Positions 24,479 through 50,800 of a stretch of DNA of 64,000 nt are shown here, in pieces (position 1 is the first letter of the stretch; every line of letters starts with the position of its first letter). A program made the translations under genes and the position numbers. Source of the stretch: Aurantiochytrium sp. KH105 (taxonomy: Eukaryota; Sar; Bigyra; Thraustochytrida; Thraustochytriidae); NCBI GenBank assembly GCA_003116975.1, contig BGKB01000032.1, positions 1 to 64,000 of the forward strand. The letters run 5' to 3'. Below the pieces are notes generated by a model that worked only from the letters and a program-made list of their open reading frames with translations, was not told where the DNA came from and searched no databases.

Positions 24479-25570
24479 CTATGTCGAGACTCTTTTTTTG
24501 CGTAAAGTTCGCGTGCGGAGCACGACAATAAACTCGGTCTCGGGACTTGCCTCGAGCAGGCGGAGCACGTGGACGCTCTCGTGCTCAACGCCGGCCTCGG
24601 CGTCGCGCAAGAGGCCCTCGAGCGGTATGGAGTCAGCGCCGAGGGTCTTGAAGCCGCCTCCTCGCCAGCGCGGTCTGCGCTCGATGAGGAGCACGCGCGC
24701 GCTCGGAAGGGCGGCCAGCGCCTCTCCCCGTAGCACCTCGCGCGCCTCGAGCGCCCGTGCGGCGCCCACGCGCAGCGCCGTGCCGCGCGTCCTCGCGGCG
24801 GCGCGCAGCCCGGGGACCCAGGCGCCCTCGGCGTCGCCGCGGCCCTCCGCGCGCGCCCAGGGCCCCGCGCGGACCACCACCTCGCGCCGCGCGCAGAGCC
24901 GCGCCTGCCGCGCCGCCGACCGCGCGCGGGGCCACGCCGGCGCCACGAAGACGGCCTCCGCGCGCACGCACGCGCCCGGGCTCTGCGCCTCCCCCTCGGG
25001 CGCCTCGTCCTCGGAGTCCGCGGAGTCGTTCTTGTTCTGCAGGCCCGGGTTCTTCTTCCGCGGCGCCCGGGTCAGCTTCCTGCCCTTCTCTTCGAGCGGC
25101 AGGGCCGGGGCCCGCGGCTGCGGCTGCGACCGCGGCTGCGACCGCGGCTGCGGTTGCGAGCCCAGGTCGGGATCCGATGCGGACTCCGACGCGGAGGCCG
25201 GGGACGCTGAGCCCTTTCTTCGTCTTGCTTCAGTTGTTTTGCGTTGGGAATGGAGGGATGCGCTTCGGGCGATAGATGAAGACGAGGAGACTTGGCTGCT
25301 GCTGCGAATGCTGCTGCTGCTGCTGGAGAACCTGTCATCATCATTGTCGTCGTCGTCGTCGTGGCTGTAATTGTCGCCAAGAGCAGCCGCAGACAGCTTT
25401 GCACGGCGGTGAGTGACTGAATGTGGGTTCAGTCTCACATTGTCACGATCTTTTGCTGGGAACATCACCTTTTGCCGCCTTTCCGTATTCACTCTTGTAA
25501 AGGACTTGTGACCAAACGAAGATAGCCCATCTTCGTCCACATAACCCTTCACTTCCTCTTCCTCTTTATT

Positions 25571-25610
<40 letters not shown>

Positions 25611-27181
25611 TCGTCGTCGGCACCTTCGCTATCTTCAAAGCAATCGGCTTGTAGAACTGGCGAGGGAGGAATTAAAGTCCACAGCTCATCATCTGTGTCA
25701 GAATCTGGGTCCTCATCGCTGTCTTCGACAATACGACGCTGGACAAGCTTACCGAGTAACTGCTGATGCCTCAGATCATAGGCAAAATTGTGGGCGTCGA
25801 CCAATACAGGCTCCCCATTAACAATTCTTCTCTCGAGGACTTCGACCTCATTGCGCTTGCTATTTCCTGGTTGAGAAGTCGTGACAGATGACTCATTGTC
25901 CACGTCTGTGACAGTCTCAAAGTGCCACTTCGCCGCAAGTCTTGGTTCTGCTTTGGGGTTGTTCAATCCCTCCTCCAATACGATCTTTGGTGAATCGGGC
26001 AAAGATGCAGACGTCGGACGCGAGGCTAATGCGCAAATATCGGAAGCATCCGAGAAATACGAAGAACCTGAGGACCATCTGGAACAAGAAGAAGAGGTGG
26101 AGATTTCGGAGGCTTCATCGTCATCCCATTCACCTTGGCGTTCGTCCAGGGTCCACCTTAAAGCTCTCTGTCTATTGTTGCAGCCTCCGTGTAGATTTTC
26201 AACTCTGTCAAGAATGAGTTGTAACCATGACCTTGAAGAAATATAGCCCTCTCCAGCAGCATCAAATATAGAGATGAAAATTCCGAACACCTCTTCAGAG
26301 AGTTGCGCACCTCGCCGCTCAAGCTTGCGTTGCACATGGTCAATTGGTACTGCCGCAGGCATGCTTTCGAGAAGCAAAGAATACGGTCGTCTTCGTACCC
26401 TGCGTCTTTCGCGTCGAAACGCTTGGCGAACAATAAAGAGCGTTACGCCTTGAATCGCAGCGCGGCGGTCAGCATTTGCGCGGCGCAGCCACGTTCGCTC
26501 CCGTCTGATTTCCTGATCAGAAACTTCTACGTTATAATTTTCTCTTTGTCGGTCTTCGTCTCTGTTGTCCTGTTGACCCACCATTCCACGCTTTCTTTCA
26601 AGTGGTGAAACAAATTGTACAGCCCACCTCGCAAAGTCTTCATAGGTGATGACACCTCGACGTTGACAATCAATCTCGCGGCAGAGCCGGGACGCTACCG
26701 TTTCAGGATACTTTTCGCCAGACGAAAACGCAAGGCTGGCAAAATCTTCAACCTCAACCGCGACCGCGTTGACTCCAAATAGGGATTCGAAAATCTCCGT
26801 AGTATGTTTTCCTGATTGCACGAGGGAGACAATACGTTCGCGAAGGCCGCAGCGGTCCGAATTTGCGACATGCTTTGTCGAAGACTCGAGCTCTTTCTCA
26901 AGACGATCCAAGGCAATCATGCGTTCCTTTTTGCCTGGGACAGGTTCGGCGAGACATTCCCAAAGCTCTCGTCGCTCCCTCCGATTGAGCGCAATTCCAA
27001 GGTTCTTAAAAATGCGTCCAACTTCGCGAGGAGCAAGGTACACGCGTGAGTCGTCGCGTCCAGCCCAGTCGAGCAGGGATGTCCACCCGTGGCGTTTTTT
27101 GTTCTCTGAAGCGCGACGGCGAGCTTTTTTTACACCGGGTGGCGTTGATGCTTCACATTCATACCGCACATCTGTGGGCAT
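24479..27181 (-). CDS. large acidic protein with weak EF-hand-like segments
   Basis: 900 residues from the ATG at 27181. The first 330 residues are folded and helical. Two segments resemble degenerate EF-hand loops (EIDCQRRGVITYEDF near 185 and FDAAGEGYISSRSWL near 305), but both lack several calcium ligands, so calcium binding is doubtful. Then comes a long disordered part: a run of about 15 Asp (residues about 520-537, from a GTC-type repeat), Ser and Asp tracts, and Gln-Pro-Arg-Ser repeats (about 675-690). The C-terminal 160 residues are Arg/Ala-rich and encoded by very GC-rich DNA, unlike the N-terminal half. The last 40 residues look folded again (VLRLLEASPETEFIVVLRTR). No family recognised. 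Confidence 0.7.
25567..25620. repeat. (GTC)n trinucleotide tract coding poly-Asp
   Basis: This lies within the 900-residue protein gene and reads as GAC/GAT codons on the coding strand, giving an Asp run of about 15. Confidence 0.9.
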
Positions 27182-28005: not shown

Positions 28006-29769
28006 ATGCCTACTAGTTTGGCGTCAGTTGCGCCAACGCCAGAAGCAAGTGTGTCTGATCCAATCGCGGAAAGTGCGAGCAATCCCTTGGTTGCCCCTCT
28101 GAATAGCGTGGATAATGAGGATACTCTCAACAATCGTAATGGGAGTTCGGTGCTAGGGAATCACCAGGACCGCCTTCTAGTGCCCGTATTCATGCCTCGC
28201 GTGCTTGATCCTGACGACACTCTGGCAAGACGTATGTGCATGGCACCTTGGATTGATGCATTTTGCTCTGCACACGGTGTCGAATTTGTTATTATGGCTT
28301 CTGTCTTTTGCGCTATCACCGGTCTCTACATATTTAGCGAAGACTACAAGATAGGTTTCTTGGTCGGCCAGGGAATCTGGCTCATCGTCGTCCCACTCTT
28401 GGGGTGCAGGACGAAAATTATTCGGCTCCTCTTCACTTCATTCTTACCATGCTATATGCTTATGACTCAAACCCTCGTGGTCGTTCTGGTCTTTTTACTC
28501 TACACAGGCGTCTACGTTGGATTGTCTACCGCCATGATCTCGGTTGAGACAACTTCATGCGTGCTATGGGATGCGTTACCTACAAAACTTCGCCGAAAAG
28601 TATTTCCAGCGCTCCTCGCAGTTTCCTTTGTATGTACAGGAGGATCCATTAAAATTCTGCTCGACTTTAACCGCACATTATCAGACGAAAGCTCGAGCTC
28701 GATGGCTATCCGCGCATCCGGCGCCGCGTTGACCTTTAGCGTGTACACTTTTCATCTATTCTGGGCAACATATAGACGACCCTTGGAAGTGGCGGCCGTG
28801 ACATCTCGCATGCAGACCCTCAAAGTGAGTCGGCACGACTTTCAGGAGCTAAGATCTCAAGTCACCAGACTTAAGATACGCGCAAGTACGGTCGATCTGC
28901 CAAACAAAGTGGAAATTTCGCCGGGCATCGACGAGCTTGTGGACGTTCTCTATTCACCTGTTCCACCTCGCGTCATCAATACGCGTCAAACGATTGGCGC
29001 CATGGTGCTTGGAAAGACTCTCAGCAACGGTGTCTTCCTTCTCCACAAGCGGATCCCCGGATACAACATAATTGGAACCGTTCTCACGTTGGCAATGTAT
29101 GCTTGTTTAAGTCACACATTTTGGGCCTTTGAAGAGCCGAGGCAAGAGATCATAGTGGCTTTGGGCTGTCTCGGGGGCTGGTTCCTGGTCACAACGTTGC
29201 CCCTCACAAACCACTGTCTCCTGAAGCTTATCCTAACGACCTTTGAGGGACGTCTCGTCTTGACGGTGCAATGCCTGAGCTGTAGCATCATGCTCTACAT
29301 GTTTCCGAGTAAGGCCACGGTGGTTATCTTTATTATTTCCGTGCAGCTCTTTCAAGGCCTTATTTCGGACGCGTGGCCATCCTTTATCACGGGATATCGT
29401 CTACGTGCTATCGGACATGGAACAAATAGCGCGATGCTCGGGGCGATACTCTACTGTATTCAAAACGAAGCCTTCCTCGGGGGAATGCATTCGTCACGAA
29501 ACCTTGAAATCTACCTTCCTCTCGGGATCGTCGTCAAGCTCAAAGCTGTGCTTCTGAGTGCAATCACTATTAACCTTGCTTTCACGCTCAAGTGGTTCTG
29601 TCTGGCTCTGATAGGTACCAGGTTCTGCCTAATTTTGCGTGCCCCGATTGTCCTCACGCAAATGCCGCGCTCGGAATTCCAAAAGTATGAGCGCTTGTGC
29701 TATTTGAATCTAGGCCTCGGCCCCAAAGGTTCAGAGTCGCTGTCAAAGCATCCCCTACCCCTTGCCTAG
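28006..29769 (+). CDS. polytopic membrane protein, tandem paralogue A
   Basis: 587 residues with about 10-11 hydrophobic helices in two groups (about 93-254 and 352-536), separated by a roughly 95-residue soluble linker. It is clearly homologous to the next two genes. Shared landmarks are PPRVINTRQTIG (320-331), LLHKRIPGY (345-353), SDAWPSFI (454-461) and APIVLTQMPRSEF (546-558). The two halves look like copies of each other: PVFMPRVLDPDDTL (60-73) matches the 318-331 motif, WDALP (188-192) matches SDAWP, and RRPLEVAA plus the following SRMQTLKVSRHDF (267-279) match the C-terminal motif. There is no signal peptide, so the N-terminus is probably cytosolic. I know no family with these motifs; a transporter or channel is a guess from topology alone. 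Confidence 0.8.
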   Translation: MPTSLASVAPTPEASVSDPIAESASNPLVAPLNSVDNEDTLNNRNGSSVLGNHQDRLLVPVFMPRVLDPDDTLARRMCMAPWIDAFCSAHGVEFVIMASVFCAITGLYIFSEDYKIGFLVGQGIWLIVVPLLGCRTKIIRLLFTSFLPCYMLMTQTLVVVLVFLLYTGVYVGLSTAMISVETTSCVLWDALPTKLRRKVFPALLAVSFVCTGGSIKILLDFNRTLSDESSSSMAIRASGAALTFSVYTFHLFWATYRRPLEVAAVTSRMQTLKVSRHDFQELRSQVTRLKIRASTVDLPNKVEISPGIDELVDVLYSPVPPRVINTRQTIGAMVLGKTLSNGVFLLHKRIPGYNIIGTVLTLAMYACLSHTFWAFEEPRQEIIVALGCLGGWFLVTTLPLTNHCLLKLILTTFEGRLVLTVQCLSCSIMLYMFPSKATVVIFIISVQLFQGLISDAWPSFITGYRLRAIGHGTNSAMLGAILYCIQNEAFLGGMHSSRNLEIYLPLGIVVKLKAVLLSAITINLAFTLKWFCLALIGTRFCLILRAPIVLTQMPRSEFQKYERLCYLNLGLGPKGSESLSKHPLPLA

Positions 29770-30128
29770 CAGGCCACGAGAGGCTGGTAGAGCCTTGGCT
29801 GCTCATTGACGTTGGCACGACTAGCCTGCCTACACGGCCTCTCCTTCGGGCCTCATAAGGATAGGCTGAGGTTTTTCTTTTCTTTTTTCTTTCTTTTTTC
29901 CGTTTTCTCGTTGATGTTGCGTTATCAGGGATCAGGCCTCTTGCATTGATTGGGGTGGCAAAGGTGAAGCGAAATTCTTGTGTCGAGTGTAGGTGCAACT
30001 GACGTTTACGCGAGCAAAGTGAGCACTGCGTCTACTCTCACTTGCTGGTACTGTTGGATGGATGTCGAAATCCAGGTTCGAGGCAGCGCGAAACGGCCAA
30101 ATTCACCGGATACGTCCATCCCCCTGCT
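29770..30128. other. spacer between paralogues A and B
   Basis: This holds a pyrimidine-rich patch of T runs broken by single Cs (about 29870-29900). It is probably the A terminator region and the B promoter. No gene is seen. Confidence 0.4.
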
Positions 30129-32189
30129 ATGGATGCGCTGGATCAAAATATTGAGCATGCGCGCCGCTGCCGCGGTCAAGCAAAGCCATATGGCGGGATT
30201 ATGCCGTCCGCGATAGTGTCGCCGGCGCCGGCATCGATACATTCTGCTGAGCTTTTGCTCGCTCGTGCACCCGGCGCGCAAGGGTTTCGCGCTCCTGACA
30301 ACCACCAATCAAAGCGCGCCCGCCAACCAGATTTTGCAGAGCAGAAAAGTTCGAGGAAACGTAGAAGATTCACCCTATTTGCCACGCACAAAAAATTGCA
30401 CCAAGAAAGTACTCTCTACTGGATCGACGAAGACGCCTTGGAAGTGAACGTTCGCCGTGAGCGATTCCTTTTCCCGCACTTTAAGCCCATCGTGATCAAC
30501 CCAAATGCTACGTGGGCAGGAAGTGTTCGACTACCTCGCACCATCGAGAGAATTGGCTTAAAGTACAGCTCCCACATTTATGTGGTGACCAGTTGCTTCT
30601 TGATGTTGACAGGGCTATTTATTATTCTCTATGAGTACGACATTGCATTTGCAATGAGTATGGGGGTCTTACCCATATTCTTTCTGCAGGTTCTCGCTCA
30701 ACCAACAATTGTCACGCTATGCTTCACTTCGTTTATGCCGTGCTATATCATTTTTTGCCAGACAGCCCTGATCATCATCGTGTCCATTCTTTATGACAAT
30801 ACGTACGCAAACATTGCCACAGCATCAATTGGGTATCATTCCAGCGTTGCTATTTTTTTTGATGCGATGCCTATGACCGTCAGAAGCAAAGTGTACGCTA
30901 TGCTTCCCGTCTATATCCTGATTTGCGTTAGCGGGTCAATCAAAATGCTCTTGGACCAGACCGCTCCGGATTCTTCTCAGGACGCTAACATTCAGATCCA
31001 AGGTTTGAGAGAATCATTGGCGAGCCGGGCTGCAAGTTTTTCGGTCAATGTGGCAATTTTTGGTGTTCATATATTTGTTTCAGTATGGAGACGGCCAGCA
31101 GCTCTCGCCTCGGTCCCAGCTCAAATGCGCGTCATCAAGGCCGTGCCCCGAAGCCTAAGCCGCATTGTTGCTCAAATTCACGCCATGCAGGCTTGGGAGC
31201 GTCGAGCTCGGCAGTCAGACATCAGCTACAAGAACTCTTTTCGAGATCCTGGTGCATGCGGCCAAAGCGAGTTGGTCCGGGTGCTTCTTTCAACGGTGGT
31301 GCCGGTCTTAATAAATTCGCGAGAATCAATCGGTGCTTCTTTATTCGGCAAGAGAATTGGAAATCTCCCGTTTCTTCTGCACAAGCATGTACCAGGGTAT
31401 CCAGTGCTGGGCCCTCTGATAATGTTTGCAGCATTTGCAGTCCTCGCGTGGGCGCTTTTCCCTCAAGAAAGAGTGTCAAAAAAACACTGGATCCCCGTCG
31501 TGGTGCTGGTTGGGTGGTCTTCCTTGGCGACGGTCCCACTCGCGAATCTTCGTCTGTGCCGACTTCTGTTGGCTGACTTTGAGACACAAATGTTTTTCGC
31601 CATTAAAACAATCTGCATTGCACTCATGGCAAGTATGCACTCGTGGGAAGCCAATCTCATTCTTTTTTCGGCTTTGGCTTTCTTGTACAACAGTATTATC
31701 TCCGATGCATGGCCAACATTCATCGTACAAGGTCGCAAGCGTGCGTATGGTCACGGGCTTAATCTCATGCTCGTCAGCGCCTTATACGCAGGTTCCCGAC
31801 TTGATATACTATTGGATGGCATCAACGAAGAACGAAACCATCGCATATCCTTTGCGGGAAAAATACACATCGAAGTGAAGGGCATCACGGAAAGTTTGCT
31901 CCTGATGATTGCTGTATTCACTCTTCGGTGCTTAATACTTTCCCTAGTAAGGCCTGACTGTTGTGTCATCCTCAAAGCGCCAGTTGTGTCCATCATCATG
32001 CCTCGTGAAGAGCTCACTCGCTACGAGCTATTATATAAAGAGGCAGTAAGAAAGGCACGTCATTCTGACCAAGTGGCTAACAAGGATGATATTGCTCCAA
32101 TTCAGAGCGATTCCAAGTCCTTGACAGAGACCACAAAAGCCAAGGAGCAGATGGAGCAAAGATTCGCGTCGCTTCAGGAGCAAGACTGA
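30129..32189 (+). CDS. polytopic membrane protein, tandem paralogue B
   Basis: 686 residues from the ATG at 30129; the frame extends upstream only with a non-ATG start, and a second ATG at 30201 is possible. It has the same layout as A, with a longer basic, probably disordered N-terminus (including SSRKRRR near 74) and a charged 45-residue C-terminal tail. First-half landmarks are PIVINPNATWA (120-130), FDAMP (244-248), SGSIKMLLD (268-276) and RRPAALAS (321-328). Second-half landmarks are PVLINSRESIG (392-402), LLHKHVPGY (416-424), SDAWPTFI (525-532), RPDCCVILKAPVVSI (608-622) and MPREELTRYELL (624-635). It lies 359 bases after A and 414 before C on the same strand, which points to local gene duplication. 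Confidence 0.82.
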   Translation: MDALDQNIEHARRCRGQAKPYGGIMPSAIVSPAPASIHSAELLLARAPGAQGFRAPDNHQSKRARQPDFAEQKSSRKRRRFTLFATHKKLHQESTLYWIDEDALEVNVRRERFLFPHFKPIVINPNATWAGSVRLPRTIERIGLKYSSHIYVVTSCFLMLTGLFIILYEYDIAFAMSMGVLPIFFLQVLAQPTIVTLCFTSFMPCYIIFCQTALIIIVSILYDNTYANIATASIGYHSSVAIFFDAMPMTVRSKVYAMLPVYILICVSGSIKMLLDQTAPDSSQDANIQIQGLRESLASRAASFSVNVAIFGVHIFVSVWRRPAALASVPAQMRVIKAVPRSLSRIVAQIHAMQAWERRARQSDISYKNSFRDPGACGQSELVRVLLSTVVPVLINSRESIGASLFGKRIGNLPFLLHKHVPGYPVLGPLIMFAAFAVLAWALFPQERVSKKHWIPVVVLVGWSSLATVPLANLRLCRLLLADFETQMFFAIKTICIALMASMHSWEANLILFSALAFLYNSIISDAWPTFIVQGRKRAYGHGLNLMLVSALYAGSRLDILLDGINEERNHRISFAGKIHIEVKGITESLLLMIAVFTLRCLILSLVRPDCCVILKAPVVSIIMPREELTRYELLYKEAVRKARHSDQVANKDDIAPIQSDSKSLTETTKAKEQMEQRFASLQEQD

Positions 32190-32603
32190 CTTTGTAAGTC
32201 AAGTCTTACTACAGTCAAACGCGATACCTTCCGCGATCTGTTGTTCCAGCTCCTCTTTTGACTACTCCCTCTTTATTTTATTTTTATAATTGATTTTGAA
32301 CGCCGGAGCTCAATGAGGCATATCTTTAGGCAACAGCAGCGCGTCCCGCACCAAAACGTTTTCAAAAAGATCCGTTGTGCAAAACGAAATGCCAGTGTTT
32401 TTTATGACGAGCGACCTTCTCTGCCAGAGGAAACGCGCGCGCGCGTACACACATGCACACCCCATATTTTGCTGCTTTCTATTTCTTTGGCTTTTGCGTA
32501 CGACCGTATCATTCTACTACAGTGTTCATGGACTCTTTCGGAAAGAGAGGAAAAACGAGGTCGTTTGTGCTTGTAAAGCCTTCATGGTCGGCAGCACGCG
32601 ACG
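32190..32603. other. spacer between paralogues B and C
   Basis: It begins with a T-rich patch (about 32270-32295) and then mixed sequence with a CG-dinucleotide run near 32436. No gene is seen, and there is no obvious sequence identity with the A-B spacer. Confidence 0.4.
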
Positions 32604-34472
32604 ATGGCGGCGCTGTCATCGTCGTCGGTTGCTGTTGCGCCACTTCCTGAAGCAGATGCTGCTGGAGCGCTGACGACCCTCGTGGATACTGCCGATACGG
32701 GAGAAGTTCCCATGGATGCACATAGACTCTCCAGGCAAGATACGACAGGAATGCTACGTGGAAACGTCCGGCGCAGCTTTTTACGAGGAAAGGTATCAAG
32801 CGACAGCCATTGCGAACGATTCATTTTTCCTGTCTTTGCGCCGCGAATCATCGACTCTCGCGATACGCTCGCGAACCTTGTCGGACTTGGACAGTTTGCA
32901 GCGACCTTTCTCAAGGACAATCAAATGAAGCTCCTTCTCATCACGAGCACGAGCTTTACAGTATTCGCTGTCTTTCTGTTCCAAGGGCAGTACACCATGA
33001 CCTTTATTGCGAGTTTTGGGACCTTGTTCAATCTTTTCCCGCTCGCCCTGTCTCAGACGAATATTATGCGTCTTTCCGCAACTTCATTCATGTCTTTTTT
33101 TGTGGGTTTAAATCTCATCGCCACACTCGTCTTCGTGGGGATTCTGTATGACAACCATTATCTTTCCGCGGGCGTCTGCATCGTGTTGATGCAGGTGCTT
33201 CCGTGCGTGCTTTGGGACACGATGCCACAAAGAGTTCGCGACACAACGTACTGGGTGCTGATTCTATGCGCATTGATCGCATGGGGTGGCGTGATGAAGG
33301 TTTTAATAGATCACGCTTCAAGTAGTGCCAACGTCGATAATCAAAATTTGTCGCCAAGCATAGAATATGCCTTGGCTCTTCGAACAGCCAGCTGCATTGC
33401 GAATATAGGATTGTTCAATGTCTATCTATTCTGGGGAATGCTCCGGCGTCCGGCAAAGCTCGCATTGAGTTCGTCGCGAATAAAGATCTGCAAAGCCCCA
33501 AAACGAGATCTTCATATCATTCGCGAGCAAGTCGAAGCCATGCGCACGTGGGAATACGACAGCCAGCGAATGCTGAAAGAGCTTCGCGCGAAAGGAGGCG
33601 CACAGAACGACATTGTGCGATTCATTTCCTCGCCCATCCCACCACTCATTGTCAACACACGGAATACGATCGGGAGGCGGCTTCTCGGCCCCAAACTGGG
33701 AAACCTTTCTTTTTATGTACACAAATTCGTTCCAGGCTATGCTTTTATTGGTTTAGCTCTCCTTTTGGGGACGTACGTCGCCAATGTACATGCCTTTTTG
33801 GCGAAGCGCAAAGATGGCATCGATGACACTGTGACTCTAACTGTCTTCCTCGCCATTTGGTCGGTGTTTTCTTCGCTTCCTCTCGCCAATGTGCGTCTTC
33901 TCCAGCTCATTGCAAGTGGACTCGAAGTTCGCTTTTTCATCACGATCAAAGTCCTGTGCTGCGGACTCATGATGTTTGTATTCCCGCAGTGGACGATGCC
34001 AGTCACCGTTTCAGCTTTTGCTCTCTCGCTCGTGTCATTAACATCTGACGCTTGGCCGACGTTTATCGTGGAGGGTCGAGGTCGTGCCTTAGGCTTTGGA
34101 CTTTGTTTCTCGACAATGCTAGGAGTTTATGTGGGGATCAGGAATAACACTCTCTTTGGAGGGAGCCTCGAAGGAATGCGCAATCCAAGAATCCACATCG
34201 CGAGCGTCGTCTCTATCGACCTGGTGATGGTCATTCAGAGCCTGCTCTTGTCATTGATCTTCTTTACTGGGAAAAATTTCCTGCTGGCGTTAGCAAGGCC
34301 CGATTGTTTCGTACTTGTGAAAGCTCCTCTTGTGAGCATTCGTGTTCCTCGTTCGCAAGCCGAAGAGTATCAGCGACTTTTTCGAGAGACGGTCCAGCAA
34401 ATATCCTCTGGAGCCGCTATCGAACGGGAAGGTCAAAATAATCCTGCTCTTCAAGGAGTTGCAACGCCCTGA
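32604..34472 (+). CDS. polytopic membrane protein, tandem paralogue C
   Basis: 622 residues from the ATG at 32604. It is closest in layout to A and B. First-half landmarks are PVFAPRIIDSRDTLA (76-90), WDTMP (204-208), LRRPAKLAL (280-288) and ICKAPKRDL (295-303). Second-half landmarks are PPLIVNTRNTIG (346-357), YVHKFVPGY (371-379), SDAWPTFI (481-488), ARPDCFVLVKAPLVSI (564-579) and VPRSQAEEYQRLF (581-593). It has about ten hydrophobic helices, with no signal peptide. Pairwise similarity is strongest in the second-half loop and the last helix plus tail, so those are probably the functionally constrained parts. The gene converges on the hydroxylase gene. Confidence 0.82.
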   Translation: MAALSSSSVAVAPLPEADAAGALTTLVDTADTGEVPMDAHRLSRQDTTGMLRGNVRRSFLRGKVSSDSHCERFIFPVFAPRIIDSRDTLANLVGLGQFAATFLKDNQMKLLLITSTSFTVFAVFLFQGQYTMTFIASFGTLFNLFPLALSQTNIMRLSATSFMSFFVGLNLIATLVFVGILYDNHYLSAGVCIVLMQVLPCVLWDTMPQRVRDTTYWVLILCALIAWGGVMKVLIDHASSSANVDNQNLSPSIEYALALRTASCIANIGLFNVYLFWGMLRRPAKLALSSSRIKICKAPKRDLHIIREQVEAMRTWEYDSQRMLKELRAKGGAQNDIVRFISSPIPPLIVNTRNTIGRRLLGPKLGNLSFYVHKFVPGYAFIGLALLLGTYVANVHAFLAKRKDGIDDTVTLTVFLAIWSVFSSLPLANVRLLQLIASGLEVRFFITIKVLCCGLMMFVFPQWTMPVTVSAFALSLVSLTSDAWPTFIVEGRGRALGFGLCFSTMLGVYVGIRNNTLFGGSLEGMRNPRIHIASVVSIDLVMVIQSLLLSLIFFTGKNFLLALARPDCFVLVKAPLVSIRVPRSQAEEYQRLFRETVQQISSGAAIEREGQNNPALQGVATP

Positions 34473-34781: not shown

Positions 34782-35778
34782 TTAAACCTCTTTTGGGGAT
34801 GGGGACAAGAGATGCTCCGCGACATAGCCCTCGGTGTCCCCTGCAGCTATCCAAGCATCCATGGTACCAAAAAGATAGTCCATGTGCCATGAGCCAAAAT
34901 TTCCGCGATTCTGCAGGTGGTGTGAAAAGTGAAAGGCACTGTGCTCTGCATTAGTAAGACCAATTTTCCCAAGCCAGGTATTCGCGAAATAGTAGCCCGA
35001 GTGTGCTTCGTAGGTTTCTTCGAGTCTGTAGACAAGCCACACGAAGAAGATGAGTGGATTGCGCCCAAAGAGAAGAACACCTCCAAGCGTGGGCATGTAA
35101 TTCGCAGCCACCTGCTCTGCGGGCGAGGCGTATTCTGCCGCAATGCCAATTGTTTCAATGTAGTTGTGATGCTGTTTGTGAATCTTGCTGTAAAGTGCTT
35201 TGCTGTGCACAAGACGATGCGCCCAGTAAAAGAAGAAGTTGTTGAAGAAGTGCGCGATGGCAAAGGCCTTGAGGAGGGCCGCAAATCCGGGCAAAGGTGC
35301 AATCAGGTCAGGCATACCCAATTTTCGCGCCGCCTTGAAGAGCGCCATCGATGTGAAGGGACTCAGCACAAACTGCCCGAAAAAGGCTTCGAGCAGCGTT
35401 TTGTAGACGAGCTTCGAGGTCGGCGCCTGCGCTTTGCCCGCTTGCATTTTGTAGCGCTGCAAGAGTCCACGGTTGTCGCAAACTGCAAAGAAGCCATTGC
35501 ATACTGCGTATGTGACGGAGTGTACGCCGCACGTGAGGACTGCAAAGATGGCGGCATCGCTAAGTTGACGCCTTCGTAGCGCCTTCACGAGCCGCACATA
35601 CGTAGGAAAGCTAGCCTTCGCCGCCAGCGTCAGCAATAGAGGCAGTCTCGTATACGCAGTCAGCGTTCTGCGTACCCAGGTGGCCCAGCCGGGGTACTGC
35701 GGTCTCGGCTCCAGCTGCGGCCAAAAGGTCGCACCGCCAGAAGGCGTCTTCTTCTTGCCATGCGTCTGCACCTGTCCT

Positions 35779-35817
<39 letters not shown>

Positions 35818-35858
35818 GCTTGCGCGCGCGCCTGCTGCTCTAGCTGCTGCTGCGCCAT
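34782..35858 (-). CDS. fatty acid hydroxylase / sterol desaturase superfamily protein
   Basis: 358 residues from the ATG at 35858 (the longer frame has no ATG). The N-terminus is Gln-rich, including an 11-Gln run coded by (CTG)n on the plus strand. The di-iron histidine boxes of the ERG25-like superfamily are visible: HRLVH, then HKQHH, then RLEETYEAHSGYYF and EHSAFHFSHHLQNRGNFG. The last is where C4-methylsterol oxidases have DHHDFHH, so the third box is altered but keeps its histidines. Hydrophobic segments surround the boxes and place the site at the ER membrane's cytosolic face. The phrase IGIAAEYASPAEQ is typical of methylsterol oxidases. The likely role is oxygen-dependent oxidation of a sterol or long-chain lipid; the exact substrate is open. 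Confidence 0.9.
35782..35816. repeat. (CTG)n tract coding poly-Gln
   Basis: This lies near the N-terminus of the hydroxylase gene and gives 11 consecutive glutamines on the minus strand. Confidence 0.9.
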
Positions 35859-36387
35859 CGTGCTCTCAGCCCCCCTCCGAGTCACTCGAGCTCCGGCGCG
35901 GAGCGATTGCGGTTTACTTCCCGGCGCCTTGGGCACGTGCCTGTCGCATGGTCGTTTGCGCAAAGCGACCCAAGTACTACTGCTTCTAGGCGAGACCTAG
36001 GTCTGGAGAAGTCCCGGTCGAAGTCCCAACGGAGGGGCTCATCGAGACCCCCGTCGCTGCGACCCTCCCTCCTCGCTGCAGGCCTCGCTGCAGGCCTCGC
36101 CGCGGGCAGGAGGAGAAGCGGCATCGGACGGCGAGCGGTCGAAAGAATGTCATGGAGATGGAGAGCAATTGTCATGATTCTTCTGAAATCAGATCATCAT
36201 CATCATCGACAACAACGACGACAACAACGTCGTCTCTATCGTTATGAACACGAACATCAAGGGTTTAGTATACAAGTATGATATTTCATGTCATTGTTTG
36301 TGCAATGTGCAACTACGTCGCGAAGACCACGGTCGAAGAAGCTCTGCAGAAAATGGGGGGGGGGGGGGGGTAAGAAGTGCTCTCTCG
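35859..36387. other. intergenic between hydroxylase and LtrA-like gene
   Basis: This holds the hydroxylase 5' flank and the LtrA-like 3' flank, including the G16 run and short CAT/ACA repeats near 36190-36230. No gene is supported. Confidence 0.45.
36355..36370. repeat. G16 homopolymer
   Basis: Sixteen consecutive guanines lie 18 bases beyond the stop of the LtrA-like gene, in its 3' flank (C-run in the transcript). Length is likely unreliable in any assembly. Confidence 0.85.
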
Positions 36388-39300
36388 TCAGCCGAGCGCA
36401 AAGTCACGGCCGCTACGCTCATGAATGACGACGTCGCACGTGTCCTCTGCAAAGTCTTCGAGGAGACGAGACTCCATATCAGGATTGCCCCGCAGACTGC
36501 TGGTCACGGAACGGTGGCTGTAAATGTCGTCGAGGATTGAGACCCGCGCGCGCAACTTGACGTGCTCCGCGTGCACGGTAAAGAGCAAAACGAGGCATGT
36601 GAAAAACAGGCCAAGAGTGGCGGTCGAGTTCACGTCGGCAGCAATGGCCACCCAAGGAAATGCGATGAGAACGAACTTGGCCAGGTACACTGCAGATGCA
36701 GACTTGGGGAAGGCACGAAATGTCTCGAGCTCAGCACTGCCCCCTCGTGCAAGAAGTCAAAGGCACAGAGAAGGGCCATAGCCATGCTGGTGGGAAGTGC
36801 CCGGAACCCAAACTCGTCGACGACCGACGCTGCCAAACTAGCGTCCTCAACGTATGTAAAAACAGTGATGCCCCCAACGGCGCTCAAAGCAACCATAAAG
36901 ATTGGCAAAAACCAGGTGACCACGGCTCCTCGAAGGTGCGACTTGCGCGCGGCCATTTCTGGGGGGTTAAAGCGTTGAATGAAAAAGTAATCGAGCTTGG
37001 TGGAAGCCACTACGCCAAAGCCAAGCACAAAGTTGACGTAGTGTTTGAGAGACTGCGTCAAGCTGGCGTTGATACTGCTGAGAATACCCTCACCAATCAT
37101 GATGAGCCCGAGCTCACTCTCTCGATGTGCGAGAAATCCCAGATCCGATGGAAGAGACGATTCCAGGTCTGTTTTTCCGATGAGCGCGCGAAGGATTTCT
37201 AAACCAAAGCTCAGGTAGTGTCCTAGGCCCCAGAGCGTAACAGGAAGGAGCACATTTGCTCCAAGCGCGATGGCCACATAGCTTGCCAGCAAAAGCACAA
37301 TGTTGATGATCGACATGAGGGCAAAGTGCTTGACGGAGCCACGCGCTCTTACGTTGTTTCGAAAGGTGAACCATATCTCAACGAGCTGGGCGACCACAAT
37401 GAGCTCGAAAAGGAGTTTCGCAGTCGTAAAAAGGTACATGTATGTCACAAAACGTGGGTGAGTCATGGCAAGATGCTCACGCACAGGGACGGCGCTTGCC
37501 AGAAAGGCGACAAGGCCAAATTGAAAGATATTCACAAGGCGATGCAGGACATCGCCCGAGATGAAGGTTGCTTGCAGGAGATTGTGCTTGTTCCAGCAAT
37601 CGAGCACCGCGGAAGCCTCAAGCACAAAGAGGCCCAGGGTGTACACCTCAAAGTTCAGGAGATACTCAAAGTTCATGTGGTTGAGACGATATGCGAGCGC
37701 CACGACGATCAAGTCGTAAAAGAGGTTTTGCCACTTCATTTCGTGAGCTGTATGGAGATGCGTCCAGTCCAGTCGAGGTAAGAATGGCCGATAGAAAGCC
37801 TTGTCGCGCATGAACATGCGTATCTGCTGCAGGAAGGTCTCGCGTTTGATTTGCGGAGCCTGGTTTTCCAGCCCTTTTTGGCTGCCGTCCGAATCGAGGC
37901 CGAGACCGCCTCGTTCCTCACAAGGTGAGGTCTCGCCGACGCCCGCGTCACTTGCGACGCGAGTTCCGGCAACGTTTTCGTCGTTGTCTCCGAGACTCAT
38001 GTGCGAGTCACTTTGGCGAAGGGCCTCAACTTGACGCAATAGGGCCTGGCGAGCGCGCTGTTCGCGTCGCTTCTTCACGCGGTACTTGAGCTTGCCAACA
38101 GCAATGACGACCGTCATAGTGCGGTTGAGTTTGCGCCTGCGCCTGAAACGACCCCGTACAATGTCGAGCACGAGCAAGGCCAAGAGAAGGCCATCTGCAC
38201 AGAGGACGACAAAGACGGGGTCAGCTTGTGCCGCCCCAAGCGCGAGGAAAGACATTGGTACTGCGAAGAGACGAACAAGCCAGACACGTTTCTTTTCCTG
38301 ACCATATCCGAAGCGAAGGCGACGGCGCGGAGTCATAATTTTGCTCAGGGAGCTCGATCGCGTGCGGGCCCCAATCGTTCGTGAAAAAGACGTCCTCGGC
38401 CCTTTGACTCGCTTGGGCGCAACGCGTGGCGTTCCCACAGCGATACCTTCTCCTCCCGTTTCGAGATCTTGCGCACGGGCAGGGCGCAAGCGCGGAGGCC
38501 GCACTCGCATGCCGGGTGCCTTGAGCGAGACAATGCGAATGCCGAGCTCTTGAAGCGCGTCAACCTGGAGCAGTTGCTGCACGGCGAGCAAAAAGGTGGC
38601 CGCGCCGAGAGAGGCGGCCAAGAACCAAAAGTAAGCTCGGCGTTTTTGCGAATACTTTGCGGTCTCGTACTGCAGCGCTTCGTGATCTGTGACATTGAAG
38701 AGGTCCGGGAAAAGTTTCGCCTGCAGGTAGAGAATCTTCTTGAGCGCCACACCGCACGAGATGAGGGCGCATGAATAGAAAGCGAAGAGCTCGATCCAGA
38801 TCACAGCAAGAATTCTCGGGCCCCGCAGCAATACGTGGTCTTGCTCGGCAAAGGGCATTGAGGTGTAGTGTAAGAGCTGCAGAACGCCCATCATCAGGTA
38901 CGAAAGAAAGAAGAGGGCGAACCATGAGACCGATAGCTCAGGAACGAGCGCGTTGCGATCGAGGCCAGTAAAGATGATGATTTGCAGCACGCCTTCGCCC
39001 ATCATGAGCATCGTGAAGCGCCCAAAGCGCACGATGCAAAATCCCGCGTCCCAGGGAATGCTATTGCTCTCAGAAAGACCGTCGCAGAGACTGAGAAGCT
39101 GCCAGGCGGCGCGACCCACGAGGTAGGCGGCCAGCCACAGCATCGCAACGGCGATCAGCGGACATTGCTTGAGGATGAGGATGAGCGCCAGGAGCAAAAA
39201 GCTGATGGGCACACATTCCATGAGTGCGCAGATGCGCGCGTAGGCTCTGACGTTGGCCTCTTTTTGCTTTGCGGCCCAGATCTCGACCCAGATGCCAAGC

Positions 39301-39884
39301 TGCAGCAGGTGGTAGGCGAGGAGGCAGGCCGTGAATCCGAGCGCTTGACCCTGTTCGTAATTGCGGAGATGTGCCTCCTCGGTAAGCTGGTGCGCCGCGA
39401 GGGCAATGAGCAGGGTTTGCGCGACAAGCACGAACCTGTGAAAATTGTCGTCGAAGCGCAACGTGGCGTCCAAGGCCAGCCGCGAGAACCACGCTCCGTA
39501 CAGGAGCAGAATGGTGGCGAGGAAGATGAGCAGGTTCTCCCAGCCAATATCTTCGCCGAGTAGCGATCCCGTGCGAAAGCTCACGCCTACAAAGGGCAAG
39601 TCGAAGAAGAGTTGCGATGCGCTCACGTGGCGGTTCTCCCTCGGCACGCCCCACTTGTACCGCGCGGTTGGATGCGCAAACACGGGTAGTTCATGGCGCG
39701 GCGTCTCGTGGTGCTGGTGGTTCTGCTGCTGGGCTGGCCCGTGTGCTGGCCCATGTGCTGTGGTCTCCTTGCTCGCAATTTCACCCGCCTCGGGGCCGTG
39801 GTTCTGGTGCTGGTGCTGGTCTTCTTGCTGCTTTTGCTCGCGGTGCCCATTCTGGGGTCCCGCGCTACCGCCGACGGTGAGCAT
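36388..39884 (-). CDS. protein with two LtrA-like membrane modules, apparent frameshift near its 3' end
   Basis: The frame from the ATG at 39884 runs 1084 codons to 36630, but its last 35 or so residues look unlike protein. The other frame, open from about 36763 to 36388, continues with a clean membrane helix (YLAKFVLIAFPWVAIAADV) and a charged tail ending DFALG. The switch falls at a five-C run on the plus strand (36740-36744); one extra base there would join the frames into about 1165 residues, so an assembly slip is likely. The N-terminus is His/Gln-rich. Two modules of LtrA type (low temperature requirement A family) are seen, each opening with the hallmark aromatic-Asp motif: LFFDLPFVGVSF (about 92-103) and LFYDLIVVALAY (about 719-730), each followed by six or more helices. 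A soluble basic linker (about 465-650) separates them. The molecular function of LtrA proteins is poorly known. Confidence 0.82.
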
Positions 39885-44876: not shown

Positions 44877-47800
44877 TTATTGCAGAAAGGAACTGAGATC
44901 TTCGCCACTCAGCTGCTGCAGCTTTTTCGCAGTGCGGTGGGCCTCGCGCTTCACGCGCGGGTCCCGGTCCTCCAAGAGCTCCGCCACAGTTGGCAAAGTA
45001 TCCGCAAGGAGAACAATAAAAGAGTCTCCGACGCCCTCGAACAGCGCAACAATCGTGTGCAGTGCCGCCACGCGCACCTCGCCGGCCGCGTGGCGCGCAT
45101 ACTCCAACACACTGCGCTGTACAGCTTGCCACAAGGTATCGTCTGTCACCGACTTGGCCAGCTTCACAACGCACGGGATGACGCAGTCGCGCACGAAGCC
45201 TTCATAGTATGCCACATCGCCTGTCGGGTCAACGGCACTCGCCGACGTTGACTTGCGCTCATCACGCATCTCCACGTCCTCGTCCTCGTCGTCCTCGTCG
45301 GAATCTGCGCCAGCGCTCTCTGCAGATGTCTCGTCGGCCTTGACTCCATGCAGGGCGCAGAGGTCCACATCCAAGGGGGCGAGAACAGCGTCCAAAAGTT
45401 CGACAAACTCGCGATTTGTGGTCTCCGAGTCTTCGGCCGCCGCAGAACTGGCAACGCGGTGCTCACAATAGGTGCCGACGACCTCCAAGGCGCGCTCGCG
45501 AACAACACGCTGCTGATATCGCCATACCTGGGCCCAGTCCTCCTGCTTCGCATTCCGCTTCGTGCGTTTGCCAGAAGGCGCGCTGGCCACGTCTTCGCAA
45601 CCGACCTCAAGGTCTCCCTTGAGCTCTTCAACAAGCTGCTCCAAAAAGGGAACCGAAAGACCAAGCAACTTTTTCCCGAGCGCCGAGGCAAAGACATACA
45701 GCGTAGCGGCCGCGCACTGCCGCTGCCAGTCCTCTGCAGGATTAACAAGAACAGCTTCGTCCTCGTCCTCTTCCTCGCTTTCGTCCTCGTCCTCGCCGCT
45801 CTCCTCGCTCTCCTCGTCATCATCGTCAGAAGCATCACTTGCTGCGTCGCGGCTCACCTTGCTAGCCGATGGTGCCTTGCGCTTGGAACCGACGCGCGCG
45901 CCCTCTTCCTCAGCGTCGTCCACATCTTCCTCCTCCTCGTCGTCGTCATCGCTACTGGCTTCAGCTGCTTTTTCCTCTTCATCATCACCAAGGTTTTCAA
46001 ACAGCGAACCCGCGCGAGACGCCAGCGTTGCAGCTTTGCTGTCGACTTGCTCGCGCAGAGCATTAAAGAGCTGCTTCATCTGTGCGGCACTGAGAACGAG
46101 CACGTAGTCCATAAAAGCGTCGGCAACCGTCTCTTCGAGCGTCTGCACCTCCGAGGCGACTTCTTCGAGTTGCGACACCGTCAGCGCAGAGCATCCAGCA
46201 CCCACAAAACGACGCGTGTCGAGCGCCTGAACAAAAAAGGCGGTCAAGCGCGCATTTTCCTGCACAAGCGCATCGCGGCCCAAACCCTCCATCGAGGCAC
46301 GAACAATTGACACAAGGTTGCGAGCCGCGGCAAGACGATGCTCTTCCACAAACGAGGCGTAAAGTGCGGTCAAAGGGCCGAGCACGATGCGCGCCTCCAT
46401 TTTGCGCGCGACCTTGTCGGCAATGCGCGCCGATGTCAGACGAACGAGCTGCGGGGCACCATTGTGGTTACCGCGGCTTGCCACCGTCAAAACATCTGTC
46501 ACGTACGGCGAGAGAAACTGAGGAAGAGTGCTCACAAGGGCGTGGATGCTCGTTGCGGCGCTCTGTCCGAGGAGCGCTCTGGCCTCGCGGACGACACGAT
46601 CCTGATCTGGCGATTCGTCCAGGTCCAGAGCCTGCGAGAAACAGACAAACATGCTCTTGCCGAAGCTTGGCAGGAGCTTGAGCACGCGCTCACCAAGGAC
46701 GCCGATCAACGTTCCCACGCAAAGACATGCGCTGCTCGTTAGCTGAATGTGCGCAGTCGTCACGTTCGGACGATTAATTGCTGCGCTCGTCCGGCGGAAC
46801 TCCTTCACCACAGAGTCCAGAACCTCGACAAAGGGCTTGGGATGCTGCGCGCCGAGATGCTTGGCAAGCACGTCGACGGCCAACAGTGCCACTTGCTTGT
46901 TCACGTCCGACTCCGAGCGCTCGCGAAGAATTTCGTGCAGATCCGACACCATTTCCAGGAACATAAGAATCTCTTCCGTCTGCCAGCGAGCGTGCTGCTG
47001 TTCGACCTTGGCAGCAAGCTGGCGAATCGCCAACTGCCGCACATGCGGATCGCCATCACGCAGGAGCTCTTGGACAACTGCAACGAACATGGGCACAGAA
47101 AGAAGAGCACTCAGCTTGTCCAGAATCAGGCAAAGCTGATCCCGCACAGCAGACCACACCGCAGACTCCTCGTCGCCCGTAGACACGATGCGGCCTGCGC
47201 GGTGGATTTGACCGTGCAGAGCATTCAAAAGGCCCAGAAAACCAGCACTGCCGTGCAGCCCCGAGGCGTTGACCTGTGCCTGTGAGAGGGTGCGCAGCAT
47301 ACGCATAAAGGCCTTGCTGCCGAGATGATCAGAGATCAGACCGCAAATAGCATTCACAAGGTCGACGCCTCGCGCGGCGTTGACTGTTCCATCAAAGTCT
47401 AGCGCCGCAGCGAGAGCGGCGTGACCTGCTTTGCGGGCGTTGCCATCCGCCGCTGCTCCGTTGGTCTTGGACTCCTCTTTTTGCTCTTCCTCTTCCTCGT
47501 CAGCGTCGTCGTCCTCTTCGTCGTCGTCGCCCCCGACATCTCCGGTGGGCAAGAAACGATGCATCACCTGGATCATTTCGACCACGGCGGCAATCTGGTC
47601 CTCGACAGAGAAGCGCGCCAAAAGCTGACCCGCGAGATCCTTTTGCTGCTCCATGTTGTTTCGGTCCTCTGCATCTGCGCCGTTCGCGCTTCCGAGCATG
47701 AGTAACAGAACAGCCCACAAAACGCGATTTTTATTGCCGCAACTCTGTACGAGAAGCTCTTGCAACTGCAAAAGACGCGCAGGGTCGCTCGAGTGCGCCG

Positions 47801-50800
47801 AAGCATTAACAAATTCCTTGAGCACGTCCATAATGGCCGCATTGGAAAAGTCAGCCCGCGACGAGGCAATGCAGCGCGTCACCTGCTCAAGGATGACCAT
47901 GTGATACACGCCCGAAGTCCCTGTCTCCTCCTCCGATTGCTCGGCCTGCTGACTGGCCTGACGCACAATGGGAAGAATCACGGGAATGGTCTGTTGCGGA
48001 AACACCTTGGTACAGGTCGCCAAAAGTTCCAGCGCTGCGTTCCGCATTGCAGTTGTTTTCGCCCCAAGAATGCACGAGACGACCAGCTCGAGGTCGACAG
48101 CCATGAGAGCTTCGTTTGCGCGTTTGCCGGGCGCCGCCTCGAGAATCTGCATTGCGCAGTTCAAACAGGAGATGACAAGCAAGTCGTCGTACTTGCGAAG
48201 GACCGCAAAGAGTGCAGGAAGCGTATCCGCCGCGAGATCGACACGATCGGATGCGCTCACCGAGCCCCCGCGCGCGCCAAAGAGACGAGCACGAGTCGCC
48301 TCCAGAACGATTCGGTTCGGGTCCTCTTTCAAACGCTTCTCGAGCATCTTGCCTTCAAAAGGAACCCGTCCGAGTGCCGTGACGGCTTCGTTGCTCAGGG
48401 TGCTGCCGGCGCCTTCCTCGGCGACGAGCGAACACAAGGCGTCAAAGGCAGCGTCCTTGTCGGCTGCGGTGAGAAGCGCAAACACTTGCTGCGCACTGAG
48501 CGTGTGCAGCACAATCTGGCGTGCCGACTTGACACTGAGACCCTTGAGGATAACATCAATGTGGAGCCGGCCAAGCTTGCACTTTTTGGTGGTCCAGCGA
48601 TGCGTGACGAGCGACAGCACCTGCGTCATGCCGTGTTCCAGTGCCTGGGCAGCCAACGCGGCCGCCTCAGTGGATCCAAAGACTTCGCCGAGATCCGGAA
48701 TCTTACCGAGCGGTCGAAGCATGTTCTCTACGCAGCGCGCCACGCTCACACCCGATGCATCGTCAGCATTGGTCGCCGCACTTGCAATGCACGCCGCGCG
48801 CTCCAAGATGGCCAAAAAGGTCTCTTCACTGTGTAAGGTGCGAAAGCAGCGTTCGAGACTGTCCGCGTCGACGTGGAACTCCTTCGAAGCGTCGACGACC
48901 TTGGCCAGAAGCGGGCTGAACGCCTCTGCCGCAGATCGTTTCCGCGAGCACCCGGAACCGACCTTGGGGAGCGCCTCGGGGGCCTTGGAGCCGGAATCAA
49001 GGTATGCCCGAGTAAAGTCGGCCGATTCCATGACGGCTTGAGCACAATCAACGGCAACACCGCGGAGTTTGGCATCGGTGCGATGGCAAAGCGGATGAAT
49101 GAGGTAAGGTGTGACCTCGCAGAACGAAAAGCCCTCCTTGCCCTGCGGATCCCGCATTGCACGGATAAACGCGGTGGCAAGGACAATTGCACGTCGTTGC
49201 GCCACAGAGGTGGCCACAGAGTCAGGCAGAGCACCGGCACAAATCAAGAGCAGCGATTGCAATAGCACGCCTTGAAAGCACGTCGTGAGCAGAGTCTGCA
49301 CAGACTTGGCGCAGGCATCCTGGTAAAGCTCCTCTGATGCACCCAAGAGCGTGCACAGCAACACCATCGAAGAAGGCACTTGTTTCGCGCCACCGTGCAG
49401 GGCCTCGCGTACGAGACTGGTCTCCTTTTCGTTTTGAAGAGCATCACACTGAACGAGACGCTCCAAGACCTTTGCAGCGAGTTCTGCGTCGACATGAGCG
49501 ACAGTAGCGAGTTTGGCAGCCAGTTCAGCAGTGTCGGCATCTGACGTCTCTGCGATGGCATCCGCCAGCGCGACGCAGCTTGCCGCGGCCGCGTGCGGAG
49601 CGCTGACGCGGAAGGAATCGTTCAAAAGCCAGTTTCCGAGCTTGTTCGCAAAGGCTGGCACTTCCTGAAGGGACTTCTCCGCGAGCGGCGCCACGAGTGC
49701 AATGTGCTTGTTTGTGGCCGCGCAAGCCGCAAGAACGCTAGTGACGATGGAAGGGTCCGATTTGCTGGCCTTTCTCTTCTTCTTGCCGTCGGGAGCCGAC
49801 TTTGAGACTGCAGGAGCGAGGGTGAACAGAGCAGCTGCGAGGCCCATGAAGTCGTCGAGACTGGCAAGAGGTCCAACAACGGGAGCCCATTGGAGAAAGG
49901 CCTTGGCAAAAGCGGGCTCCGTGCTATGCCGCGCGCACGCGGTGAGCGCAGCCTCGACGATAAAGGCTTCTAAAGGAGCTTCTTCTCCCTTCTTGGACGA
50001 TGTCGGCGTCGTTGAAGGAAGGGCATGGAGCTTGGCGGCAAGTGCGAGTGCCGCGACCGAGACCTCGCAGTTGTCGTCCATGATGCGATCCATGAGAACG
50101 CGAAGGGAAACCGTGTCGCGAACGAGGTCGCCCTGGGCGAGCTGCTCGAGCGCGTGGCGGCGAACACTGGCCTTGTGGTGATGGAGAGCAGCACGAAGCG
50201 GCACACCGTTCACGACACGATGGGCAGCAAGCGCCGCATTTCCCGAAAAGCAGTCGGCAGCAAAGGAGAGCAGCGTCTCGTCGCTGGAGGCTTCGAGGAG
50301 CTCATCAATCGCGTCGCCGCGCTGCGCAGCAATCAGACGACCTGCGACGAGACAGTTCTCATCGCGGCCAGTTTCGCTATCGTACTCGCTGACGGCCAGC
50401 GCATGAAAGACGGGCTGAACGTTTGCAGGCATGCAGACACGCATGCAGGCAATGAGCGGCTTCATGCCCTCTGGGTCCGCCGCTAGCTGCGCATAGAGCT
50501 TGGACACGAAGGACTCGTCCGCCGAGCCAGCAGCAGGGGACTCGCCAAAGGCAGATGCGAGCGCGGCGCTTAGGGTGTCAGCTCCATAATGCGTTGCAAG
50601 GCGCGAGACAGAAGAGTCCGGGATGGGGAGGTCGTCCTGGTTGTCAAGGACAATAGCTGAGCAGCGCAACGCATCTGCAAGCAAAGGCTTGCGGGCTTTG
50701 CGGATCGTGGCGAGAATTACGAGTTTGGCGGCCTTGGCCGAAAGCGCCGAGTAGCGCGCGAGGTTGGCGCCAAGGATGTAGCCGGCGCGCTGAAGGAAGT

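Follow-up and report, generated by a model that had tools for sequence, protein, structure and literature searches.

Three tandem genes of Aurantiochytrium sp. KH105 belong to a dispersed family of predicted two-repeat, 12-helix membrane proteins

A protein whose two six-helix halves have the same orientation is usually a transport protein. In the major facilitator superfamily (MFS) 12 helices form two six-helix halves of the same orientation, and the sequence signature known as motif A is not kept by every member. The eukaryotic TMEM175 (DUF1211) lysosomal K+ channels consist of two repeats of six helices with an FSD motif in each first helix, two-pore channels and other Ion_trans proteins likewise have two six-helix repeats and keep both termini inside, and the otopetrin proton channels are about 600 amino acids (aa) long, with 12 helices that form two six-helix domains related by pseudo-symmetry. 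Orphan membrane families are also frequent in protist genomes. The present paper concerns three adjacent genes, T1, T2 and T3, in a stretch of 64,000 nucleotides (the window; contig BGKB01000032.1, positions 1 to 64,000, assembly GCA_003116975.1) from the thraustochytrid Aurantiochytrium sp. KH105. They belong to a family of at least 11 genes, and each protein of this family very probably consists of two homologous six-helix repeats of about 250 residues, giving a two-repeat 12-helix architecture. On balance, we favour the reading that these are pseudo-symmetric 12-helix membrane transport proteins.

A preliminary description of this DNA, made without database searches, had reported three co-oriented neighbouring genes encoding 587, 686 and 622 residues, and a check of the open reading frames (ORFs) found both coordinates and lengths to be correct. 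For T2 the ORF finder placed the start at a TTG at position 30042 (715 aa), while the first ATG, at 30129, gives the 686-aa protein. The genes and their repeats are as follows.

28006..29769, + strand: gene T1, 587 aa, predicted 12-helix two-repeat membrane protein, open ORF
28168..28869, + strand: T1 repeat 1, six predicted helices, WDALP at T1 residues 188-192 (repeat alignment, hydropathy, AlphaFold2)
28936..29706, + strand: T1 repeat 2, six predicted helices, SDAWP at T1 residues 454-458 (repeat alignment, hydropathy, motif scan)
30129..32189, + strand: gene T2, 686 aa, predicted 12-helix two-repeat membrane protein, open ORF
30459..31184, + strand: T2 repeat 1 (repeat alignment)
31272..32039, + strand: T2 repeat 2, contains SDAWPTFI (matches repeat 1 of paralogue B, E 1.4e-6)
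32604..34472, + strand: gene T3, 622 aa, predicted 12-helix two-repeat membrane protein, open ORF
32814..33539, + strand: T3 repeat 1 (repeat alignment)
33612..34385, + strand: T3 repeat 2, contains SDAWPTFI (repeat alignment, motif scan)

The three proteins share 29-33 % pairwise identity (T2 31 % and T3 29 % to T1 in a three-way alignment), and their homology was beyond chance in the genome searches (T1 vs T2 E 7e-82, T1 vs T3 E 9e-76, T2 vs T3 E 3e-86). The family alignment bore out the conserved cores and divergent tails described earlier. The motifs given in the preliminary description fared unevenly in a motif scan. Both [VI]N[TS]R..IG and SDAWP[ST]FI occur in all three proteins, LLHK..PGY is found in two and reads YVHKFVPGY in T3, and AP[LIV]V..[MV]PR occurs in none as quoted and in all three once the gap is set to three residues. 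Among the 11 proteins these motifs are confined to the trio; SDAWP without the residues that follow is also present in the first half of paralogue B. A tandemly duplicated polytopic family was correctly recognised, whereas the trio is not a system standing by itself: it is one of three tandem clusters in a family that counts at least 11 genes and is dispersed in the genome. Neither the internal duplication nor the eight further paralogues had been described.

The assembly searched comprised 76 Mb in 367 contigs. The 18S primer LABY-A (PMC9171235) had no match in it and so lent no support to a suspected labyrinthulomycete origin, but rRNA may be lacking in this assembly. In it the 11 genes lie at six loci, three of which are tandem clusters (the window trio and two more), and each gene has a second copy; 11 is a lower bound for the family size, as the genome search scored its best candidates only. 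The second copies of the trio are on other contigs (T1 94 % and T2 95 % identical on C306, T3 95 % on C195). They look like a second haplotype and the genome looks diploid-like. The paralogues outside the window, all found by searching with newly found members, are listed with the contigs of their two copies.

Contigs C311/C98: paralogue A
Contigs C48/C242: paralogue B
Contigs C180/C53: paralogues C1-C3, in tandem
Contigs C5/C21: paralogues D1-D2, in tandem
Contigs C257/C250: paralogue E

Outside the trio the paralogues are 15-17 % identical to T1. Paralogue E is only weakly tied to the others by single-sequence search (E 0.008-0.04 with E as the query); in the family alignment it aligns across both repeats and retains the conserved aspartate, described below, in both halves. 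The frames of the eight paralogues outside the window run from stop to stop and include some codons upstream of the likely start.

The internal repeat became visible when paralogues were compared: the T1 sequences WDALP (first half) and SDAWP (second half) proved to be one motif. When the 11 first halves were compared with the 11 second halves by profile-profile alignment, the probability of homology was 99.4 % (P 2.1e-21 over 237 columns), and P was 1.4e-21 with a separate alignment. The reversed profile used as a control gave a probability of 0.1 %, and 30 of 30 profiles shuffled in 12-column blocks, by which the hydrophobic pattern is roughly preserved, gave at most 1.9 %. Single sequences also matched across repeats: residues 382-547 of T2, in repeat 2, matched the first half of paralogue B (E 1.4e-6), and the first half of B matched the second half of T2 in the reverse search (E 3.1e-6). 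In a tree of the 22 repeats a single change parts the repeat-1 set from the repeat-2 set, and none of 500 shuffles was as low. Such a split would be expected of a duplication that predates the divergence of the paralogues.

Hydropathy averaged over the 11 members shows 12 peaks, six per repeat with similar spacing in both, at T1 residues 102, 126, 158, 179, 210 and 245 and at 364, 392, 424, 446, 477 and 527. The number of about ten helices proposed earlier agrees with the peaks of single trio proteins, and the family mean instead gives 12, arranged as 6+6. The density of lysine plus arginine, counted without the 6-7 linker and the tails, is 0.12-0.20 in the predicted inside loops and 0.05-0.11 outside, and it is higher inside in all 11 proteins. 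An AlphaFold2 model of T1 repeat 1, for which the input was the six window repeats only, has six long helices with a short strand at either end (mean predicted local distance difference test score, pLDDT, 62.1; predicted template modelling score, pTM, 0.53). From the mean hydropathy, the charge density and this repeat model, the prediction for each half is a six-helix unit whose two ends are cytosolic, with the two halves facing the same way.

As far as it can be read from the alignments, the family-wide hallmark is a repeated pattern, chiefly the DA.P aspartate (D), at the inner end of helix 4, and the F that opens helix 3. The D is present in 11/11 first and 11/11 second halves of the full-length alignment (in the repeat alignment 10/11 and 11/11, i.e. 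21 of 22), and the F in all 11 first halves and 9 of the second. A P ahead of the first helix is kept in 8/11 first and 11/11 second halves, and a T or S eight residues beyond it in 10/11 and 8/11, respectively. The conserved signature positions are at or near the predicted cytosolic face and not in mid-membrane.

The genes are under selection. The ratio of nonsynonymous to synonymous substitution rates (dN/dS) was 0.12-0.36, with dS of 0.05-0.12, in all ten allele pairs compared; against their second copies T1, T2 and T3 gave 0.23, 0.28 and 0.26. The C2 pair was left out owing to an in-frame stop in one copy, and for the D2 pair, in which the C5 copy has a stop in the N-terminal tail, only the 636 codons after that stop were used. 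One haplotype has an open C2 frame of 660 aa, whereas the C180 copy carries the in-frame stop (C180:104266-106164; C53:273218-275053), which reflects either an error of assembly or a broken allele that is segregating. On C306, the second T2 copy is about ten codons short, with its stop at codon 675 in the variable tail. Two further observations concern the C cluster. The start of C2 and the stretch preceding it (C180, about 104266-104520) match many sites in the genome, including contigs C44, C24, C85, C362, C340, C34 and C351, and the stretch around the start is probably an interspersed repeat. A partial copy (C53:272126-272386), 94 % identical to the C-terminal 87 residues of paralogue C1, lies inside the tandem cluster of C1 and is probably the remnant of a further duplication.

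The preliminary description had proposed profile searches and fold comparison as a check for recognised relatives, and these gave no significant match in Pfam, NCBIfam, PDB sequences or PDB folds. With the 11 members, Pfam and NCBIfam yielded isolated sub-threshold matches only, the best at E 0.12 and E 0.027, respectively, in one protein each; DUF2109 was sub-threshold in two proteins (best E 0.87). No soluble domain was recognised by Pfam in any member. No match in the PDB sequence searches was below E 0.43, the rows being signal peptidase complex subunit 2, Psa28, the NaK channel, V-ATPase subunit e, ribosomal protein S17, a cytochrome oxidase subunit and inward rectifier 13. The NaK channel and inward rectifier 13 overlap helices 3-4, at E 0.68-7.4, and were taken as chance matches. 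When the six-helix model was compared with the PDB by Foldseek, none of 171 matches reached E ≤ 0.001, and transport proteins among the rows listed, ZnT8 (E 2.2) and the MFS pump QacA (E 2.8), were at chance level. There was no significant fold match among viral predicted structures, and most rows of the VIA structural alignment span helices 3-6 only, as generic four-helix bundles. Among viral contigs 0/12 pattern matches were confirmed for the trio alignment and 0/3, 0/9, 0/2 and 0/3 for four single proteins; in a bacterial and archaeal collection of genome contigs 0/22 and 0/22 were confirmed, these collections being silent on distribution in eukaryotes. A search of the open-access PMC literature for the SDAWP octamers found no paper, and the titles listed in searches there include no description of the family. 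The family is, provisionally, unrecognised among the Pfam, NCBIfam, PDB-sequence, PDB-fold and viral-fold collections, on which its novelty rests. We conclude that the family is real, under selection, internally duplicated and nameless with the resources searched.

How these proteins might work can be proposed from the predicted architecture. A six-helix unit would have been duplicated within a gene at an ancient stage, and the resulting gene would then have spread in the genome and been duplicated in tandem. Two halves facing the same way could pack around a pseudo-two-fold axis, and a small solute or ion may move by a pathway between them. An inner gate could be lined by the paired DA.P aspartates, the basic residues that follow them and the N and FE at loop 2-3 of the second half, so that the two halves would differ in detail, and the strand-like segments at the two ends of each half, outside its first and last helices, may hold it together on the cytosolic side. 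Two like-oriented six-helix halves make transport of a small solute or ion the most likely function. By analogy, we give transport of any kind a slightly better than even chance; that the proteins are carriers rather than channels is a more tentative suggestion.

Several observations weigh against this reading or its parts. Single members show 7-12 hydropathy peaks (T1 9, T2 10, T3 12), so that the number 12 relies on averaging. The charge difference is modest, the loop limits come from the same alignment and the rows are related, and the full-length model has a pLDDT of only 38.8. The branch parting repeat 1 from repeat 2 is weakly supported (36/0, 42 % of bootstrap trees). The two halves also differ in what they conserve: the N in the helix 2-3 loop is found in 5/11 first but 11/11 second halves and the acid following the helix-3 F in 5/11 but 10/11, with the first halves of the trio having neither, and the basic residue after DA.P stands at different columns, as R in 11/11 first halves and five columns later in 9/11 second halves. 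Finally, there is no relative of known function, and transport is argued solely from the architecture and the conserved polar residues.

Other explanations can be considered. The gross layout, with two same-orientation six-helix halves, ends inside and about 600 aa, is that of known 6+6 superfamilies (MFS, two-pore/voltage-gated-like channels, TMEM175, otopetrin), and with the low identity to T1 outside the trio a common ancestry could be hidden. The Foldseek list contains ZnT8 and QacA, though at chance level. We nevertheless consider it rather unlikely that the family is a very divergent branch of such a superfamily, beyond profile detection, as all 11 members lack a Pfam match to these families at E up to 10 (within HMMER's filters), neither the PDB sequences nor the Foldseek comparison of the six-helix model gave a significant relative, and MFS motif A, the TMEM175 FSD motif and the K+ filter and Na+/Ca2+ pore-loop patterns are absent from every member, with no basic ladder in helix 4. 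About equally doubtful is the proposal that the proteins have a six-helix repeat fold of their own, unrelated to solved transporters and channels, which was duplicated internally and expanded to at least 11 genes in this protist lineage to serve its own transport or signalling needs.

Conservation peaks on the cytosolic side of the membrane and in the stretches that flank the six-helix blocks, which would also suit a polytopic scaffold, a lipid-handling enzyme or a sensor of internal membranes, in which the cytosolic segments would be docking or catalytic sites. The lack of any recognised soluble domain speaks against such non-transport roles, as does two-repeat pseudo-symmetry, which is best known from transport proteins, and we regard them as unlikely, somewhat more so than a divergent branch. 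The blemished copies (C2 on C180, D2 on C5, the second copy of T2 and the partial C1) might suggest ordinary gene duplication with decaying or non-functional tandem copies, but all three window genes have uninterrupted frames and are constrained relative to their second copies, which makes decay highly improbable. A family of pseudo-symmetric transport proteins stays our favoured reading.

The surroundings of the trio include a fatty-acid hydroxylase, on the strand opposite to the trio, and an LtrA-domain protein (Pfam PF06772, E 1.2e-27), a member of a family named from bacteria and here found in a eukaryotic genome. These two neighbours give no reliable functional clue. Other features of the window are included in the list.

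3094-7113, - strand: SMC protein
10597-11814, - strand: amidohydrolase
24479-27181, - strand: 900-aa open frame with long Asp and Ser runs and Gln-Pro repeats, no Pfam domain at E ≤ 0.01
34782-35963, - strand: fatty-acid hydroxylase
36630-39884, - strand: LtrA-domain protein, 1084-aa open frame
44877-51542, - strand: BP28CT/HEAT protein
52675-55224, + strand: protein kinase
55893-59915, - strand: kinesin

Polytopic families unseen by profiles are a hiding place of undescribed transporters and channels. The clear internal repeat, the two-copy signature and 11 diverse paralogues suffice to build a profile with which eukaryotes can be searched. If the fold were new, it would provide a further 6+6 design, and if the family instead belonged to a known superfamily as a lost branch, the distance to which such branches can drift would become apparent.

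Compared with the described systems, the family shares with TMEM175 the two six-helix repeats, but the FSD motif was found in 0/11 proteins and there was no Pfam match. With two-pore channels it shares two six-helix repeats and, by prediction, both ends inside; no Ion_trans profile matched the 11 proteins at E ≤ 10, and the K+ filter and Na+/Ca2+ pore-loop patterns were found in none of them. The basic ladder [RK]..[RK]..[RK] occurs 12 times in 9/11 proteins, never in helix 4 and always in the N-terminal tail, the central linker or the segment leading into the first helix of a half. In contrast to the channels, the helix 5-6 loop spans only about 22-26 columns and carries no pore-loop signature. 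Otopetrins are alike in their length of about 600 aa and in the 12 helices and two pseudo-symmetric six-helix domains predicted here; no otopetrin profile matched any of the 11 proteins at E ≤ 10, and otopetrin was not among the fold matches listed (the best 50 of 171 Foldseek rows, and VIA), which come from a single-repeat model of moderate confidence and do not amount to an exclusion. The MFS has in common with the family two homologous six-helix halves, ends inside (here predicted), a long cytosolic 6-7 linker and conserved motifs at loops 2-3 and 4-5. Unlike in the MFS, each half in this family has an extra conserved segment ahead of its first helix and behind its last; motif A (G...D[RK].G[RK][RK]) was found at loop 2-3 in none of the 11 proteins, no MFS profile was among the Pfam models at E ≤ 10 for any of them, and the one MFS row among the folds, QacA, was obtained with the single-repeat model of pLDDT 62.1. 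The family itself is unrecognised; the 6+6 shape of a membrane protein is already known, and the 11-gene family has the same-orientation 6+6 layout of the MFS, as predicted from profiles, hydropathy and charge.

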